From an uncultured Bacteroidota bacterium (GTDB lineage Bacteria > Bacteroidota > Bacteroidia > Bacteroidales > UBA12481): a stretch of DNA of 64,000 nt. The position numbers and the translations under genes are program-made. The notes beneath the pieces are model-generated. The model saw nothing but the letters and a program-made list of their open reading frames with translations. It did not search any database and was not told the DNA's origin. The stretch spans positions 200,051-264,050 of the forward strand of contig CAINOB010000002.1 of NCBI GenBank assembly GCA_903851365.1. Direction: 5' to 3'. Each line of letters opens with the position of its first letter. Position 1 is the stretch's first letter. This document shows positions 13,995 to 20,200 of the stretch, piece after piece.

Positions 13995-16079
13995 ATGGCT
14001 AAAAAACAGGGTGTTCACTTAAGATCAGCAAAGGCAGGTAGATGGTGTGCCATTTTGGTCTTTTTTTTGGTGCTTCCGGGCTTTTCTACAGAACATTACA
14101 CCGGTAAATATATTGATGGTGAAGGTGATGCGAGGTTTCTAAAGCTCATTGATGAGTCATTTGCGTTTTTCCACCCCAATGCTGCAGTACCGAATGTTTC
14201 TATGCTTTATGAGCCAAAATGGGATACTTTCCTCGAGAGCGGCGGCTGGAATGCCTGGTGGATACAAAATGGATATGGTTTTTCATATTCCGCGACTCCC
14301 TTTATTCAGGAGCCCTGGTTTTCTCTTTTGCAGCGTTCCTGGGATCTCCTTTGGAACAATCAGGGTGATGGCAGGCGGGCTGGCCGTATCGACGTTCCCG
14401 GCAAGCCGGCTAATACCAGTGCACTCTATGCCCTGGTGGCTCCCGATGGCAGTTTGGGTGATTGCGCAGGCCCGGAGGAGATAATATATAAGCAGGGAGA
14501 TGGTGATGTTTCCGTGCATGACTGGTTTTATGAGGCTACGGCAGCTGGATTGGTGATGCAGGCGGAAATTCTGCTGGCTAACCGCGATCCGGAAGCCATC
14601 CGTCATTATCTGCCAAAAATGGAACGGGCATGCAATTTCATTGAAAAGGCACGCGACCCAAAAAACAACCTGTTCCTGGTGGGACCGGCCTGCAATTTGC
14701 TGGCGCCAAGCTATGGTGGTGTGAAAATGGCTGATGGCAAGTTTGGCAAAGGCTATCTGGCAGGTGTGTCGGTAACCTATCTGGCAGCGATCGACAGGAT
14801 GCTTGAAATTTACAGGATGACAGGCAATACCGAAATGATTGCTTTGTTTGAAAAAAGGCAGGCCATCACCCGTAAATCTCTTTCGCTGCTTCAGGCTCCT
14901 GCCGGATATTTTGTAAAATCAGTAGAGCCCGGAGGTATAAAACATGGGGTGTTGGGTCAAAAAGAGTACGGATATTTAGAAGGAGTTGTCAATGCAGATG
15001 CTGTAGCATTGAGGGTGGTGGATGATCAGACGGCTGATAAAATCTATAAGCAGATAGCGGCATTTCCGGACATCCGGCCCTTCGATTTTTTACTCACGAA
15101 TGCACCCGGGCTCGACGATACCTACTGGAGCTGGGGAAAAACTTCAGGCCCCGGAATGGATGGGATCAAGGAGTTTGGCTGCTGGGTAAACGGCGGAGCC
15201 TGGACAACAGTCGAGGGCAGGGCAATTCTGATGTATTACCGCATGGGGAAATTTGAGGATGTTTACCGTTCTGCCATCCGGGCCATGAAGTGGTCGAAGG
15301 ATTTTCGCATGGACCAGCCATTTACTCAGGGAGGAGAAAATACAAAGAATAACTGGTACGATGAGGGCCAGTGGTTGCATGGCGACGGAGTAGCCGTGAT
15401 GGCCGATAATTTTGCCATACCGGCGGCTACGATCAGGGGGCTTTTCGACTATGATTATCGGGCCGACCGGTTAATCCTGCGTCCGCGGATTCCCGGCTCA
15501 ATAACTCAGTATTTGCAAAAGGAACCGGTACGTTTCGGGGACAAGAAGATCTGGCTGACTTGCCGCAATGGCGGACCTTTTGTGAAAGCAGTGAGGATTA
15601 ATGGTGAAGAGCTTAAGAGAGGCGAGAAGCATGGTGATGAGGGGGTTAGCAGGAGTGAGGTGGTGCTGTATTATGATAAACTGCCGCAGGAAGCTAAAGT
15701 GGAAATTATTATGGAAGGAGGTTGGGAGAAGTTGGGATTTTCGTCAGCGTATCCTGAAATTCCGGCATTGACCACCGTGAAAGCTGATAAGAAATTCAGG
15801 GCTGAAAGTCTGCCTGACTCTATGCAGAAGCCATATTCAGTGCTTTACCAAGCGGAAAAGACACTGGCAAAAGATCCGGCGGCTGTGGTAAATCATGCAT
15901 TCGTGGTGGAGGCTCTGGCTTCTTTCCGGGCCTATCAGGAAAGAAAAACTGTTGATCCCGGTCCGGGATATTTTAGGGTGATTGATCAAAAGAGAAGGGA
16001 GAACATGGTTAAGCTGTATGCCCGAACCGCAATGGCGCAGTACCGGGGATTCGAGAAGAGGAATGAAAAGCACAGTTAG
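13995..16079 (+). CDS. Exported (alpha/alpha)6-barrel glycosidase-like protein
   Basis: A 694-residue protein with an N-terminal signal (CAILVFFLVLPGFST after a basic stretch). The body has the helix-rich pattern with aromatic-acidic motifs found in six-hairpin glycosidases: WNAWWIQNGYGFSYSATPF, DWFYEATAAGLVMQAE, LDDTYWSWGK, WVNGGAWTTVEGRAILMYYR, and W(L)HGDGVAVM. The section at about 480-560 is beta-rich (LILRPRIPGSITQYL), like the C-terminal beta domain that follows such barrels. The family number cannot be named with confidence; GH78-, GH94- or GH95-like relatives share this layout. Probable role: release or binding of sugars from a polysaccharide outside the cytosol. No carbohydrate genes flank it directly; the CAZyme region begins about 8.5 kb further on. 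Confidence 0.7.
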   Translation: MAKKQGVHLRSAKAGRWCAILVFFLVLPGFSTEHYTGKYIDGEGDARFLKLIDESFAFFHPNAAVPNVSMLYEPKWDTFLESGGWNAWWIQNGYGFSYSATPFIQEPWFSLLQRSWDLLWNNQGDGRRAGRIDVPGKPANTSALYALVAPDGSLGDCAGPEEIIYKQGDGDVSVHDWFYEATAAGLVMQAEILLANRDPEAIRHYLPKMERACNFIEKARDPKNNLFLVGPACNLLAPSYGGVKMADGKFGKGYLAGVSVTYLAAIDRMLEIYRMTGNTEMIALFEKRQAITRKSLSLLQAPAGYFVKSVEPGGIKHGVLGQKEYGYLEGVVNADAVALRVVDDQTADKIYKQIAAFPDIRPFDFLLTNAPGLDDTYWSWGKTSGPGMDGIKEFGCWVNGGAWTTVEGRAILMYYRMGKFEDVYRSAIRAMKWSKDFRMDQPFTQGGENTKNNWYDEGQWLHGDGVAVMADNFAIPAATIRGLFDYDYRADRLILRPRIPGSITQYLQKEPVRFGDKKIWLTCRNGGPFVKAVRINGEELKRGEKHGDEGVSRSEVVLYYDKLPQEAKVEIIMEGGWEKLGFSSAYPEIPALTTVKADKKFRAESLPDSMQKPYSVLYQAEKTLAKDPAAVVNHAFVVEALASFRAYQERKTVDPGPGYFRVIDQKRRENMVKLYARTAMAQYRGFEKRNEKHS

Positions 16080-16087
16080 CAGTAAAA

Positions 16088-16267
16088 CTATACGTTCCTA
16101 CCGCCCCTGTCCCTCATGGAACCGGTTAACCAATTGAGCAGATTCATCACCGCATCGAAAAACTTGTTAATGATGGGTGATTTTGAGTTTCTGAACAGCA
16201 GCCAGGTAAATCCGGCAAGGAGGAGCAGTACCGTAATGGCTCCAACGATAATCAGGAAATCAGACAT
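16088..16267 (-). CDS. Small single-span membrane protein, unknown
   Basis: A 59-residue protein from the ATG at 16267 (MSDFLIIVGAITVLLLLAGF), one membrane helix at about residues 4-25 followed by a basic, amphipathic tail (NKFFDAVMNLLNWLTGSMRD). The frame is open further upstream, but that part reads through the inverted repeat of the DUF559 unit and is unlikely to be protein. Convergent with the gene ending at 16079. Coding status is uncertain: short length and no recognised family. Confidence 0.4.
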   Translation of the reverse strand: MSDFLIIVGAITVLLLLAGFTWLLFRNSKSPIINKFFDAVMNLLNWLTGSMRDRGGRNV

Positions 16268-16337
16268 AGGGTATGGTTTTTGGTAATGCAATTTAAAAAA
16301 TTTAAATGGTGAGGCAATGCATGGGCTATGGGAGCCG

Positions 16338-16407
16338 GCTGTGAAGATCTTAGTTGTACCCACCCCGGCCCTCCCTGAAACCAGGGAGGGAGTCTGCTTT
16401 GTTGCTT
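16338..16407 (+). repeat. Left outer inverted repeat of the DUF559 unit
   Basis: 70 bp, matching the reverse complement of 16975-17044 at all but one base. It contains AGTTGTACCCACCCC (16352-16366), then the 9-bp-arm hairpin at 16369-16390. A diverged partner in opposite orientation follows at 16433-16475, sharing AGTTGTnCCCACCCC and CCTGAAAC read on the other strand. Confidence 0.9.
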
Positions 16408-16432
16408 TCTCACTACCCAATCAAGCCTGAGC

Positions 16433-16475
16433 ACAATTCCCTTCCCGTTTCAGGGGTTATGGGGTGGGCACAACT
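16433..16475 (-). repeat. Left inner, diverged inverted partner
   Basis: Read on the minus strand it begins AGTTGTGCCCACCCC (one change from the outer copy) and goes on with CCTGAAAC and a run like GGGAAGGGA. The hairpin arms have decayed. Together with 16352-16395 it forms a doublet with about 40 bp between the two copies. Confidence 0.7.
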
Positions 16476-16549
16476 CCAGATAATTGCTCTGGAAATTCCA
16501 TTTAAGCCTGTAAAATGCATCTATAGCTGTATCATATAAAAAGTTTCAC

Positions 16550-16912
16550 ATGCATTATATTGAAATCAAAGAATTAGCTGCCAGATTTCGTAAGAATCCG
16601 ACAGAGGCAGAAAAGAAATTATGGAAATACATCAGAAATATGAAATTATCCGGAAGGAAGTTTCTTCGACAGCATCCTATTATTTATCAGATTATTAAGA
16701 ATGATTGCTTCTTCTTTATCCCGGATTTCTATTGCGACAAAGAAAAGTTAATTATCGAGTTGGATGGCGGAGTTCACGATGACAGAATAGAAAAGGATAT
16801 TCATCGTGATAAGATCCTCCAAAATCTGGGTTTTCGTATTTTACATATCCGAAATGAAGAACTCTCAGAAATGGAGTTGGTCCTTTCTAAAATTAGACAT
16901 CATTTTCTCTAA
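16550..16912 (+). CDS. DUF559 / Vsr-like endonuclease-domain protein
   Basis: A 120-residue protein of the DUF559 family, related to very-short-patch-repair endonucleases with a PD-(D/E)xK core. The helical start is typical (ARFRKNPTEAEKKLWKYIRN, then GRKFLRQHPI). The core is visible: PDFYCDKEKLIIELDGGVH gives the Asp and the E-x-D residues, followed by RDKILQNLGFRILHI. It has the usual full length for the family, so it is not truncated. Upstream of the ATG at 16550 is AT-rich and without a good Shine-Dalgarno. It is the only gene in the inverted-repeat unit 16338-17044, which suggests a cutting or nicking role directed at those repeats or at mismatched/branched DNA; that role is inference. 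Confidence 0.85.
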   Translation: MHYIEIKELAARFRKNPTEAEKKLWKYIRNMKLSGRKFLRQHPIIYQIIKNDCFFFIPDFYCDKEKLIIELDGGVHDDRIEKDIHRDKILQNLGFRILHIRNEELSEMELVLSKIRHHFL

Positions 16913-16918
16913 ATCACA

Positions 16919-16942
16919 ATCCTTTCCTGAAACGAGGGAGTG
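16919..16942 (+). repeat. Right inner, truncated repeat partner
   Basis: Contains CCTGAAACGAGGGAG (16926-16940), like the hairpin part of the left outer copy, in the same orientation as it and opposite to the adjacent right outer copy. The AGTTGTACCCACCCC part is absent because the DUF559 stop codon (16910-16912) directly precedes it. Confidence 0.55.
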
Positions 16943-16974
16943 GATTTGTAATACTGATTGGTTACGTACAATGG

Positions 16975-17044
16975 AAGCAACGAAGCAGACTCCCTCCCTG
17001 GTTTCAGGGAGGGCCGGGGTGGGTACAACTAAGATCTTCACAGC
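16975..17044 (-). repeat. Right outer inverted repeat of the DUF559 unit
   Basis: 70 bp, the reverse complement of 16338-16407 with a single mismatch. The stretch 16913-17248 (336 bp) contains no gene: it holds this repeat, its inner partner, a 14-bp palindrome at 17100-17113 and the leader of the kinase at 17249. Confidence 0.9.
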
Positions 17045-17099
17045 ACGGGTCCTCGAATCTCTAAATTGGTCCTTGATCTCCCCAAATCCAACCCCTTTT

Positions 17100-17113
17100 C
17101 GCACACGTGTGCG
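17100..17113. promoter_or_regulatory. Perfect 14-bp palindrome, possible operator
   Basis: CGCACACGTGTGCG is fully palindromic with a central CG, which is the style of LacI-family operators. It lies 135 bp upstream of the hybrid kinase start. No LacI-type gene is in the window, so the assignment is a guess. Confidence 0.3.
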
Positions 17114-17248
17114 ATAATCGTCAATAAAAATAGTTGATTGGTGTAAAAGTAATTTCGGTAAGTTATTGCTTAAGAATAGGTTAAAATTTTTCATCAATCC
17201 GGTAAAATTCCCACTATTTTTTGGCACAACCTGTGTATAACATGGGTT

Positions 17249-20200
17249 ATGAATATTAAAAACTACTCATGGAGGTCCTCCCGCGGAACGTCCTGGAACG
17301 CATTTGGCATACTGCTGATTGGAATTATCCTGTCGGGACTGGCTGCCTATTATACTGAACAAAGCATCCGAAATACCCTTGCTGAGGAACTTAAAGATAC
17401 CGGCATTGAAATAAGCTCAAGAATAGATATCAGGCTTCATGCTCATGCCCAACTTTTAAGAAGCGGTGCCTCTTTATTTGCGACAACCGATACGGTAACC
17501 CGCGAACAATGGAAAGGATTCATTACTAATCAGGAAATCGAAAAAAACCTGAAGGGTATTCAGGGGGTTGGATATGCGCCACTGATCCCCAAAAAACAAT
17601 TGCAGGACCATCAAGGAACGATCAGAAAAGAAGGGTTTCCTGATTATAGGGTAACTCCTACCGGCGAGAGGGATGCTTACACCCCGGTAATTTTTCTGGA
17701 ACCCTTCAGCGGGAAAAATCTCCGCGTTTTTGGTTACGACATGCTATCAGAACCAGTCCGCAGGAAAGCAATGGAGAATGCGCGCGATTCCGATATAGCC
17801 ACTCTTTCCGGGAAGGTTAAATTAGTACAGGAAACAGATGAGAATCTGCAAGCAGGAATGGTGATGTATGTTCCTGTATACCGCAAGGATATGCCGGTTG
17901 ATTCACCTGAACACCGCAGGGCAGCCATCAGAGGCTGGGTATACAGCCCCTATCGTATGAACGATTTGATGAGTAAGATTCTGGATAAACTTAAAAACCC
18001 GGGAAAAGGCGAACTCTTTTTAGAGATCCACGATACACAAAGCCTATCTGAGGCAACCTTACTATTTAATTCCCAGGAAATACCGGACAGAAATAGTAAA
18101 TATAGCATCAAGCGTAAACAGGATTTTCAATTCAATACAAATTTCTGGACCTTGAATTTAACCCTGCTTAATTCTTATTGGACGACATTCCGTGCCGTAA
18201 TATTTGTTTTTGGTGTCGGGATCGCCATAAGCTTACTGATCTTCCTACTAATTAATGCCATATACAAACAGCGTCGGGAAACTCTGTTGCTGAATGAAAG
18301 TGAAAAGCGGTACCGTTCACTATTCCAGGACAATCATTCGGTCATGCTGCTGATTGAGCCTGATACAGGGGCCATCAGAGATGCCAATGCAGCAGCCTGC
18401 CAATATTACGGTTGGCCGATTTCTGAAATGTGCAGCAAAAACATTTCTGAAATTATCATGCTCAACGAAGAGGAAATTGCCTCAGAGATGCAAAATGCTG
18501 CAACGGAACAACGCAAGCATTTCTTTTTCAAGCACAGGTTGTCGAATGGAGAGATACGTGATGTGGAAGTTTATTCCGGCCCGATTTCGTACGGAGAGAA
18601 TACTTTACTCTATTCGCTGATACATGATGTTTCTGATAGAAAAAAAGCGGACAAGGATCTGAAAGCTATTAATTTAAGAATAACCCAATCGGAAAATGAT
18701 CTCGCGAAAGCCCAGGCTGTTGCACATCTGGGTAACTGGAAGTGGAGTGTAATGGACGGTGAGGTTACCTGGTCGGATGAGATGTACCGTATTTTCGGCA
18801 TCGATAAAAACAATTATACCGGCCGCCTTGGCGATGTGATCTCAGGGGTTATTCATCCTGACGATCTGTATCTTGTTCTTCCTTCCAATGCCGATAGTTT
18901 CGCGGGAAAAAAACCCATCGAGTATCGGATCATTCTACCCGATCATTCCATACGGTACATTTTAGCTGAATCCGGAGAAAGTGTTTTCGACAAGGAAGGC
19001 AACGTTACTTTCCTCACCGGTGTAGCTCAGGATATAACCGAAAGGAAAATGGCGGAGCAGGAACTGCTTGAAAATGAACAACAATTCAGATTTTTATCTT
19101 ATCAGCTTGAAGCAATTCTTGACCATATTCCGGGCCTGGTATTTTATAAAGACAAGAAAAATAATTTCATCCGTGTAAATAAGAATTTTGCTGAAGGACA
19201 TGGCAAAACCAAGGAAGAACTGGAGGGGAAGAATCTTGCCGACCTCTACCCCAAAGGGGATGCTGAACAATATTTTCAGGATGATTTAAAGGTAATTAAT
19301 TCAGGCCATGCCGAATTGAATATTGAGGAAAGATGGGTTACGGAAGAGGGTGTCAAGTGGGTGAATTCGAGTAAAATACCATTTGTTGATGCGGATGGGG
19401 AGACCATTGGGGTTATCGGAGTATCCATGGACATTACCGAACGCCGGCAAGCAGAACAGGCGGTGCGTGAGAGCGAGGAACTCTACCGGTCGATTCTTAT
19501 CGCTTCCCCGGATGTTATCACCATAACTGATCTTGACGATCGTATTCTGATGTTTTCACCTGGGGCCTTAAAAATGTTTGGATTGGAAAACGAAGATGAC
19601 ATAATGGGGCACTTAGGTTCCGATTTTATTGCTCCTGAAGACAAAGAACGTGCGGCTGCTGATCGACAACAAATGTTGGATGGAGATAGGAACGGATTAT
19701 CTGAATACCTCGCGCAGAGTATGGATGGCCGTAAGTTTTATGTTGAGCTAAATGGGGAGTTTATCCTGGATGCCGGCGGGCAGCCTTACCGGATGGTATT
19801 TATCATCCGCGATATAAGTGACCGGAAGCATGCCGAAGCTGAACTCCGTGAAAAGGAATTTCAATATTATAATCTTGCCAACTCCGGAATGGCACTTATC
19901 TGGGTATCAGATACTGAGAAGTCATGCTATTATTTTAATGAACCCTGGCTGAAATTTACGGGGCGGACGATGGAGCAGGAATCGGGCAACGGATGGGCGG
20001 AAGGGGTTCATGCTGATGACCTCGATTTTTGCTTTAATACCTTTGTGACAGCCTTTGATAAGCGAGAGCCGTTTGAAATGGAATATCGCATGCGTAATGC
20101 AGCTGGCGAATATCAGTGGATTCTTGATCTGGGCACCCCAACTTACAAGAGCACCGGTGAATTCACCGGATATATCGGGCATTGCTTTGACATCAATCAC

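Follow-up and report, generated by a model that had tools for sequence, protein, structure and literature searches.

A probable family of mobile elements with REP-like hairpin doublets around a Vsr-like DUF559 nuclease gene

We analysed a window of 64,000 nucleotides from an uncultured Bacteroidota bacterium, in which a 0.7-kb unit (positions 16338-17044) consists of one DUF559 gene enclosed by two inverted hairpin-repeat doublets. This unit probably represents a family of mobile elements, in which inverted doublets of tip-bearing hairpins surround the gene of a Vsr-like (EDxHD-type) DUF559 nuclease in a manner resembling REPINs and their RAYT genes. The mobility of the element and the pairing of the nuclease with the repeats are well supported, and we infer that the nuclease cuts DNA.

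The element in the window and its nuclease

The outer repeats at 16338-16407 (+) and 16975-17044 (-) are reverse complements of each other, 99% identical over 70 bp (E 3.5e-28), which bears out a sequence-only reading of this DNA; with their inner parts the arms reach 109 nt at 83%. The hairpins which that reading had placed at each end were likewise found, at 16369-16390 (+; CCCTCCCTG-AAAC-CAGGGAGGG, of which the genome has further copies, identical or nearly so) and, inverted, at 16992-17013. The doublets follow a plan of tip (AGTTGTACCCACCCC), hairpin (CCCTCCCTG-loop-CAGGGAGGG), spacer, and then an inverted hairpin and tip. Specifically, the left doublet (16352-16475, +) comprises the tip AGTTGTACCCACCCC, the outer hairpin, a spacer, and a decayed inner hairpin and tip (..GGGGTGGGCACAACT); because solo doublets elsewhere show the identical part order, the left end is recognizable as a full, though decayed, doublet. 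The right doublet (16921-17030, -) has its outer hairpin at 16992-17013 and an outer tip (..GGGGTGGGTACAACT) ending at 17030; its inner hairpin (16921-16942, -) is decayed, with 82% identity to the reference copy, and the inner tip is gone. The suggestion that each end is a doublet with a decayed inner partner is confirmed. Folded as a single strand, the left end (16353-16480) gave a z-score of -3.9; the right end (16914-17030) folds weakly (z -2.6), and 2 of 200 shuffles were equally good. A known structured RNA was not indicated, as Rfam gave no match at gathering score.

The element lies between an upstream gene ending at 16079 and a downstream gene at 17249, which from reading their open frames we take to be glycoside hydrolase-like and sensor kinase-like respectively. 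Over 54 repeat ends of the genus, the repeat edge most likely reads AGTT before GTACCC (G 0.87 at -3, A 0.83 at -4) and is mostly AG(T/A)T ahead of GTACCCACCCC, with weaker preferences at -7 to -11. These latter preferences are largely due to copies in genome G005, which have a longer end in common, so that the exact border of the element is uncertain. At the same 54 ends, neither the GTAG tetranucleotide of REPIN/RAYT edges nor the CGTC edge motif of CGTC REPs was present. No target-site duplication was seen at the few readable junctions, all of which are too diverged to rule out a short one.

Between the repeats lies a single complete DUF559 gene (16550-16912, +), as had been read from the sequence. 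Its intact 120-aa frame matches in Pfam only PF04480 (DUF559, E 5.9e-28) and, below cut-off, a REase model. An AlphaFold2 model of the protein (mean pLDDT 89.9) matched the Neisseria DUF559 structure 3hrl (Z 14.5), I-Bth0305I (Z 11.5) and Vsr (Z 9.6); a match to TnsA (Z 6.9) is possibly at background level. Residues E21, D59 and E70 are kept in all 71 members that lie in-frame within larger genes and in 62/62 stand-alone members, and D72 and H76 in 70/71 and 62/62 respectively. From Vsr and the name of the EDxHD family, we take these five residues to be catalytic. The window protein is a single catalytic domain of 120 aa, without an extra tethered DNA-binding region. A known defence gene was considered, and PADLOC gave none. 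Assignments of DUF559 to Vsr-like or EDxHD-family nucleases have been made earlier, in the sections cited (PMC1189080, PMC9403480, PMC12907096), and one DUF559 gene was there placed in the EDxHD family itself (PMC9403480).

Solo, shrunken and transferred copies in the genus

Doublets without a gene, whose existence elsewhere the sequence-only reading had proposed to check, are present both in the source genome (G000; 5.23 Mb in 130 contigs) and in sister genomes. In G000 they lie on contigs C63, C30, C94, C55 and C85, with weaker copies on C1 and C18; the sister genomes G006 and G001 contain further ones. Of 10 doublets measured, eight have a length between 127 and 129 bp and two are of 58 and 139 bp; the single-strand folds of four solo doublets are far better than those of shuffled sequences (z -6.3 to -11). 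Genome G005 contains nine distinct copies of a derivative of ~330 nt, which combines hairpin ends with a mere fragment of the DUF559 gene. As 7 of the 8 copies covering the place have an identical 32-base gap, one defective element has multiplied in this genome. Three other genomes of the genus (G002, G003 and G007) gave no match to DUF559 and none to window-type repeats, and G001, in an assembly of 960 contigs, has the repeats and a sole DUF559 match of another type.

An empty site, which the sequence-only reading had also proposed to look for, was found for a G006 solo doublet on C255, which is missing from the matching G000 stretch (C118); G001 has one end only at this place. At the G000 copy on C63, the match to G006 stops where the border lies. 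In a search over ten solo sites, locus L159 gave a usable pair of filled and empty sites, and at L013 the left border alone was clean. All other sites were one-sided, rearranged or too diverged.

The neighbourhood of these copies offered several further observations. At locus L157 (G001, C632), the counterpart of window positions 15656-17800, inspection by eye showed a sulfatase-modifying-factor-like gene in place of the DUF559 element, and the same locus has one single end of a different repeat family. More short dispersed repeat families from the flanks of solo doublets (query positions of about 918-972 and 66-123; GGGTATCGGGTATCGGG-like, with others at 66-123 and 2601-2690) have matches at many sites in G000, G001, G006 and G007.

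At the window site the element is present in G006 too. Between G000 and G006 the DUF559 gene has a dS of 0.10 (2/26 fourfold sites differ), against 1.50 for the upstream gene (68/122) and 1.01 for part of the downstream gene (95/187; a second alignment of this gene, 33% identical and with repeated domains, was set aside). Nucleotide identity is about 90% in the repeats and 78-84% in the flanks. As judged from these sequences, which come from assemblies of many contigs, the element was probably transferred or converted well after the two species had separated, with a local assembly error as another possibility. In addition, the outer arms have changed jointly between the two genomes, with ATCTTA/TAAGAT in one and ACCATA/TATGGT in the other beside the tips, as gene conversion between the ends would give.

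Elsewhere, most same-site insertions of stand-alone genes look old and vertically inherited, because DUF559 was clearly closer than every flanking piece in only 3 of nine pairs. In five pairs DUF559 was about as close as the flanking pieces or less so, and in the ninth (L188/L194) its nucleotide identity exceeded the flanks, yet its dS was 1.2. The nine pairs, three of which share members, were drawn from 19 listed, of which 11 had flank matches on both sides; L064/L201 (identical, apparently from a single genome) and L025/L049 (both loci in the same genome) were dropped. In a B-type pair (L032/L044), DUF559 is 98% identical, which is weak support because the flanks are themselves 85-93% identical.

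Pairing of repeats with DUF559 genes across genomes

We searched 395 genomes of the class and found a DUF559 match to the window protein (E<=1e-6) in 149. The hairpin pattern CCCCTCTCN{2,16}GAGAGGGG occurred in 89 of these 149 genomes but in 35 of the 246 others (p 5e-21, uncorrected for host kinship), with 1319 versus 177 copies; 124 of 125 hairpin-bearing genomes entered this count. The backward control pattern was found in 8/395 genomes by hand count. Nine DUF559-negative genomes have at least five hairpin copies, and 3 of the 9 gave a PF04480 match. In two nearly complete genomes, G176 and G406, the hairpin occurs 5 and 7 times, while PF04480 was not matched at E<=1e-5; these copies may be remnants or belong to another mover.

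Repeats also vary together with their proteins. Similarity of repeats and similarity of proteins correlated with a Mantel r of 0.32, a value that includes host kinship, the highest of 500 permutations being 0.10. At 43 of 107 loci the nearest repeat was that of a protein among the five nearest, as compared with a mean of 5.1 and a maximum of 15 after permutation. These were loci with repeats compared between genomes, with L316 omitted.

A genome collection was also scanned with 16 related proteins as queries. The best 80 of 543 loci are mostly from Bacteroidota, with others from Balneolaceae, Saganbacteria, Patescibacteria, Cyanobacteria, Anaerolineae, Caulobacter and further groups. An inverted repeat across the DUF559 gene (E<=0.01) was found at 42 of 70 loci versus 4 of 251 shifted windows, and at E<=1e-6 at 29 versus 1; ten of the 80 loci had less than 300 bp on one side and were left out. 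At the other 28/70 loci no flanking inverted repeat was found at E<=0.01. Matching inverted repeats around DUF559 homologues are thus frequent; the sequence-only reading had made its proposal depend on this and on further copies of the repeat, and both exist. Many of the flanking repeats share one C-rich hairpin style (CTCACCCC..CCCCTCTC-loop-GAGAGGGG). Motif patterns, picked after the DUF559 loci had been inspected, occurred within 600 bp of 39/61 stand-alone and 45/71 in-frame DUF559 genes but in 4/124 shifted windows, and at 14 of 19 DUF559 loci examined in the genus, in the family and in genomes rich in the hairpin. A TGCATCTAT box upstream of the gene was discarded as a general feature, being found in 0/61 stand-alone loci.

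In a Caulobacter MAG, all seven DUF559 genes are flanked, by several kinds of repeat of which two are alike. Nine of 35 DUF559 matches in plasmid and phage records were fetched. Matching inverted repeats surround DUF559 in Sinorhizobium (E 5e-19), in Deinococcus within an hpa operon (E 1e-6) and in Sphingomonas between two transhydrogenase genes (E 3e-8), and a weak one does in Picosynechococcus (E 0.003); an Azospirillum record and two E. coli records showed no matching repeat pair around the gene. An unverified phage record (MT835749, L284, a faecal phage contig) has DUF559 with a 22-nt inverted repeat of other sequence (E 6e-5). In Neisseria gonorrhoeae (L276) a CCCTCTCCCTGTGGGAGAGAG-like repeat flanks the gene on both sides, in direct rather than inverted orientation. 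No CGTC repeats were seen by eye next to DUF559 in Alphaproteobacteria and Neisseria.

Hairpins are common near genes, and ordinary GC-rich terminators could happen to flank a small gene. We regard this as vanishingly improbable. Chance and terminators were rejected on the control rates around DUF559 loci (2-3%) and on the Y1_Tnp loci, where DUF559-type repeats were found at 0/26; moreover, the tips are conserved, doublet length is nearly fixed, and hairpins are translated in-frame within essential genes (see below).

The same loci bear on whether a RAYT or other transposase moves the repeats, with DUF559 as cargo or as a user of the repeats as landing sites. Y1_Tnp genes are present in 12 of 13 genomes tested, and some hairpin-rich genomes lack a DUF559 match, as would be expected if the nuclease were a passenger. 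However, with Y1_Tnp as the transposase class searched, motif patterns again picked with DUF559 loci in view were found at 0/26 Y1_Tnp loci in genomes of this kind (26 of 30 fetched loci, from 32 rows listed), and the Caulobacter MAG with 7/7 flanked DUF559 genes has no Y1_Tnp match; on these two counts RAYT was rejected as the mover. Since, in addition, repeat type follows DUF559 type, we hold a passenger role of the nuclease to be very improbable. Flanking inverted repeats do occur at 9/26 Y1_Tnp loci and are of other sequence than the DUF559 type; the Y1 transposase genes at L362, L363, L369 and L370, for instance, have inverted repeats of their own.

In E. coli K-12, the DUF559 gene ycjD (L285:2683-3036) lies between sapF and fabI; of 5426 E. 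coli genomes, 3365 gave a match to it. The 367-bp stretch behind ycjD that contains the repeat matches a median of 13 places in each genome. The repeat was seen on one side of ycjD only, downstream, and strains lacking ycjD likewise gave matches to sequence from this stretch. We discarded E. coli as a clean empty site, as the three ycjD-less strains fetched have an efflux operon at the place, described as eefRABCD in the cited part of PMC12817139. A control panel gave a PF04480 match in Caulobacter vibrioides only; its E. coli, without a match, may lack ycjD or may have been missed by the search. The pairing is testable in E. coli K-12, a carrier of ycjD.

In-frame cassettes, mechanism and known systems

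DUF559 cassettes also occur inside conserved genes. By hand count among the matches listed, at least 49 lie within open frames of at least 600 aa. We read 71 in-frame loci, 52 from fetched regions and 19 from the 80-locus scan, with at least one double: L237 equals L316 in DUF559 and host, L316 being left out of the pairing test above and L237 out of the tree below. Pfam placed a full DUF559 domain inside six proteins, namely LeuRS (at two insertion points), MetH, RecG, acetyl-CoA synthetase (Acs) and a class I tRNA synthetase. The last is presumably IleRS, and further hosts appear to be restriction enzymes and, in L097, HisF, all judged by their motifs. The hairpins are translated too, giving peptides such as SPLPGRGAGGE and LPSGEG. 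Flanking inverted repeats were found at 40/71 in-frame loci versus 11/350 shifted windows, and at E<=1e-6 at 20 versus 0. Within one genus, Acs contains a cassette in four genomes and, at the corresponding place, a short loop in 19. Of 36 genomes 32 gave matches, and among the 24 sequences aligned L125 was uninformative. Besides the cassette, L241, L242 and L256 show by eye several in-frame hairpin-like peptides, as if solo repeats had inserted too.

Certain sites recur: LeuRS site A accounts for 20/71 loci and site B for 7/71, as assigned by reading. On a poorly resolved DUF559 tree of 149 rows, of which L320 and L321 (the longest branches) are doubtful members, in-frame and stand-alone states change 12 times versus 49 when shuffled, and occupation of LeuRS site A changes 8 versus 19 times. 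On this tree site occupation is clustered, and a single event may be one explanation. Among in-frame pairs, similarities of DUF559 and host disagree in both directions, e.g. 52% versus 81% in a MetH pair (L297/L316) and 81% versus 74% in an Acs pair (L090/L100). The fourfold sites of in-frame pairs are near saturation, too diverged to reveal recent transfer.

Repeated occupation of the LeuRS, IleRS, MetH, Acs and RecG sites, with DUF559/host similarities discordant both ways, agrees with strict homing. Here, an EDxHD homing endonuclease would cut one site in alleles lacking the gene, homologous repair would copy the gene, the hairpins would be mere borders and the solo doublets deletion remnants. 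The dS at the window site (0.10 for DUF559, 1.0-1.5 for its neighbours) and the kinship to I-Bth0305I, the nearest solved functional relative, agree with such a course. However, solo doublets and shrunken elements at many unrelated sites are not expected from it, DUF559 is the catalytic domain alone, most same-site stand-alone pairs look vertical, and the tree resolves the site groups poorly. We therefore judge strict homing unlikely, though of some weight.

Another possibility is that DUF559 is a housekeeping gene, i.e. a Vsr-like nuclease for mismatch or hairpin repair that benefits the host and is kept near the repeats to protect or homogenize them. The Vsr fold agrees with this, and dN/dS values of ~0.04-0.3 in same-site pairs with finite values indicate that the protein is under constraint. 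Moreover, the part of PMC12907096 cited here suggests very-short-patch repair as the task of the DUF559 protein VsrA of Caulobacter, and reports that cells without the ScmA cytosine methyltransferase need it for the SOS response; this VsrA-dependent response, observed in vivo, suits a nuclease. In contrast, the patchy presence in 149/395 class genomes, the in-frame invasion of unrelated genes, the multiplied shrunken copies and the several repeat kinds in one genome fit a mobile element better, making a purely repair-related role quite improbable.

For the mobile element that we favour, the following course can be envisaged. The nuclease would recognize its own repeats (as a cruciform, a single-strand hairpin or a tip sequence) or its target, and would cut or nick DNA; host break repair would then fill the cut with a copy of the element or of a solo doublet. 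As in REPIN/RAYT systems, the movable doublet would be served in trans by one full-length gene, with a hydrolytic nuclease plus host repair standing in for the HUH tyrosine transposase. In-frame fusion into essential enzymes could ensure expression of the gene and hinder its loss. RAYT-like action on the doublet best explains the solo copies, while homing-like action best explains the repeated same-site occupation and the dS result; one enzyme may do both. Of the earlier suggestion that a nuclease takes the RAYT role, the repeat pairing and the dispersal have stood up, and a homing-like route of cutting and repair is conceivable beside it in view of the dS result and the I-Bth0305I/Vsr kinship.

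More tentatively, and with somewhat less than even confidence, we suggest that DUF559 proteins constitute a second, independent REPIN-like class, as dedicated mobilizers of C-rich hairpins (CACCCC..CCCTCTC..GAGAGGG types) found in phyla as different as Bacteroidota, Cyanobacteria, Chloroflexota and Proteobacteria; E. coli ycjD would belong to this class too. Such elements would spread by cutting and host repair without a transposase, and persist by in-frame entry into essential enzymes. In the open-access literature we found no prior report linking DUF559 to REP-like repeats or to in-frame insertion into essential genes. Bacterial genomes commonly contain REP-like repeats, and RAYT is the only enzyme class tied to them in the portions of that literature consulted; the pairing gives another repeat class a candidate enzyme. 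It likewise offers a candidate role for DUF559, still a domain of unknown function in Pfam, and accounts for the odd nuclease domains in LeuRS, IleRS, MetH, Acs and RecG. Its recurrence in several phyla, together with the scattered solo copies and the in-frame cassettes, suggests a type of mobile DNA that has so far been overlooked.

Among known systems, REPIN/RAYT as portrayed in the cited sections of PMC3116915 and PMC6006769 shares with these elements inverted hairpin doublets as the dispersed unit, able to form hairpins; one full-length gene flanked by related repeats, although here not at every locus; and several repeat families per genome, with co-variation of repeat and enzyme. The enzymes differ, in that RAYT is an HUH tyrosine (Y1) transposase whereas the window-type enzyme is a Vsr-like hydrolytic nuclease; the repeat tips are of AGTTGTACCCACCCC or CTCACCCC types rather than the GTAG of REPINs; and DUF559 cassettes often lie in-frame inside essential genes. 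CGTC and GTAG palindromic repeats and Rickettsia palindromic elements are comparable as short palindromes and dimers, some in ORFs, and CGTC repeats are said, in the part of PMC3733652 cited, to have no dedicated transposase; the window's repeats have neither GTAG nor CGTC as their tip, and they come with a candidate enzyme. The Vsr/DUF559 repair nucleases YcjD (PMC1189080) and VsrA (PMC12907096) belong to the same protein family or fold, but the cited parts of these papers treat the genes singly and leave flanking repeats unmentioned. With EDxHD homing endonucleases such as I-Bth0305I (PMC3943268, cited in part), the elements share catalytic fold and residues, the occupation of conserved genes and, at one site (that of the element in the window), strong signs of recent same-site transfer, which are weak or absent in most other pairs. 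Unlike these endonucleases, DUF559 has no extra DNA-binding domain, showed no intron or intein where its loci were read, and comes with REP-like ends and dispersed solo copies.
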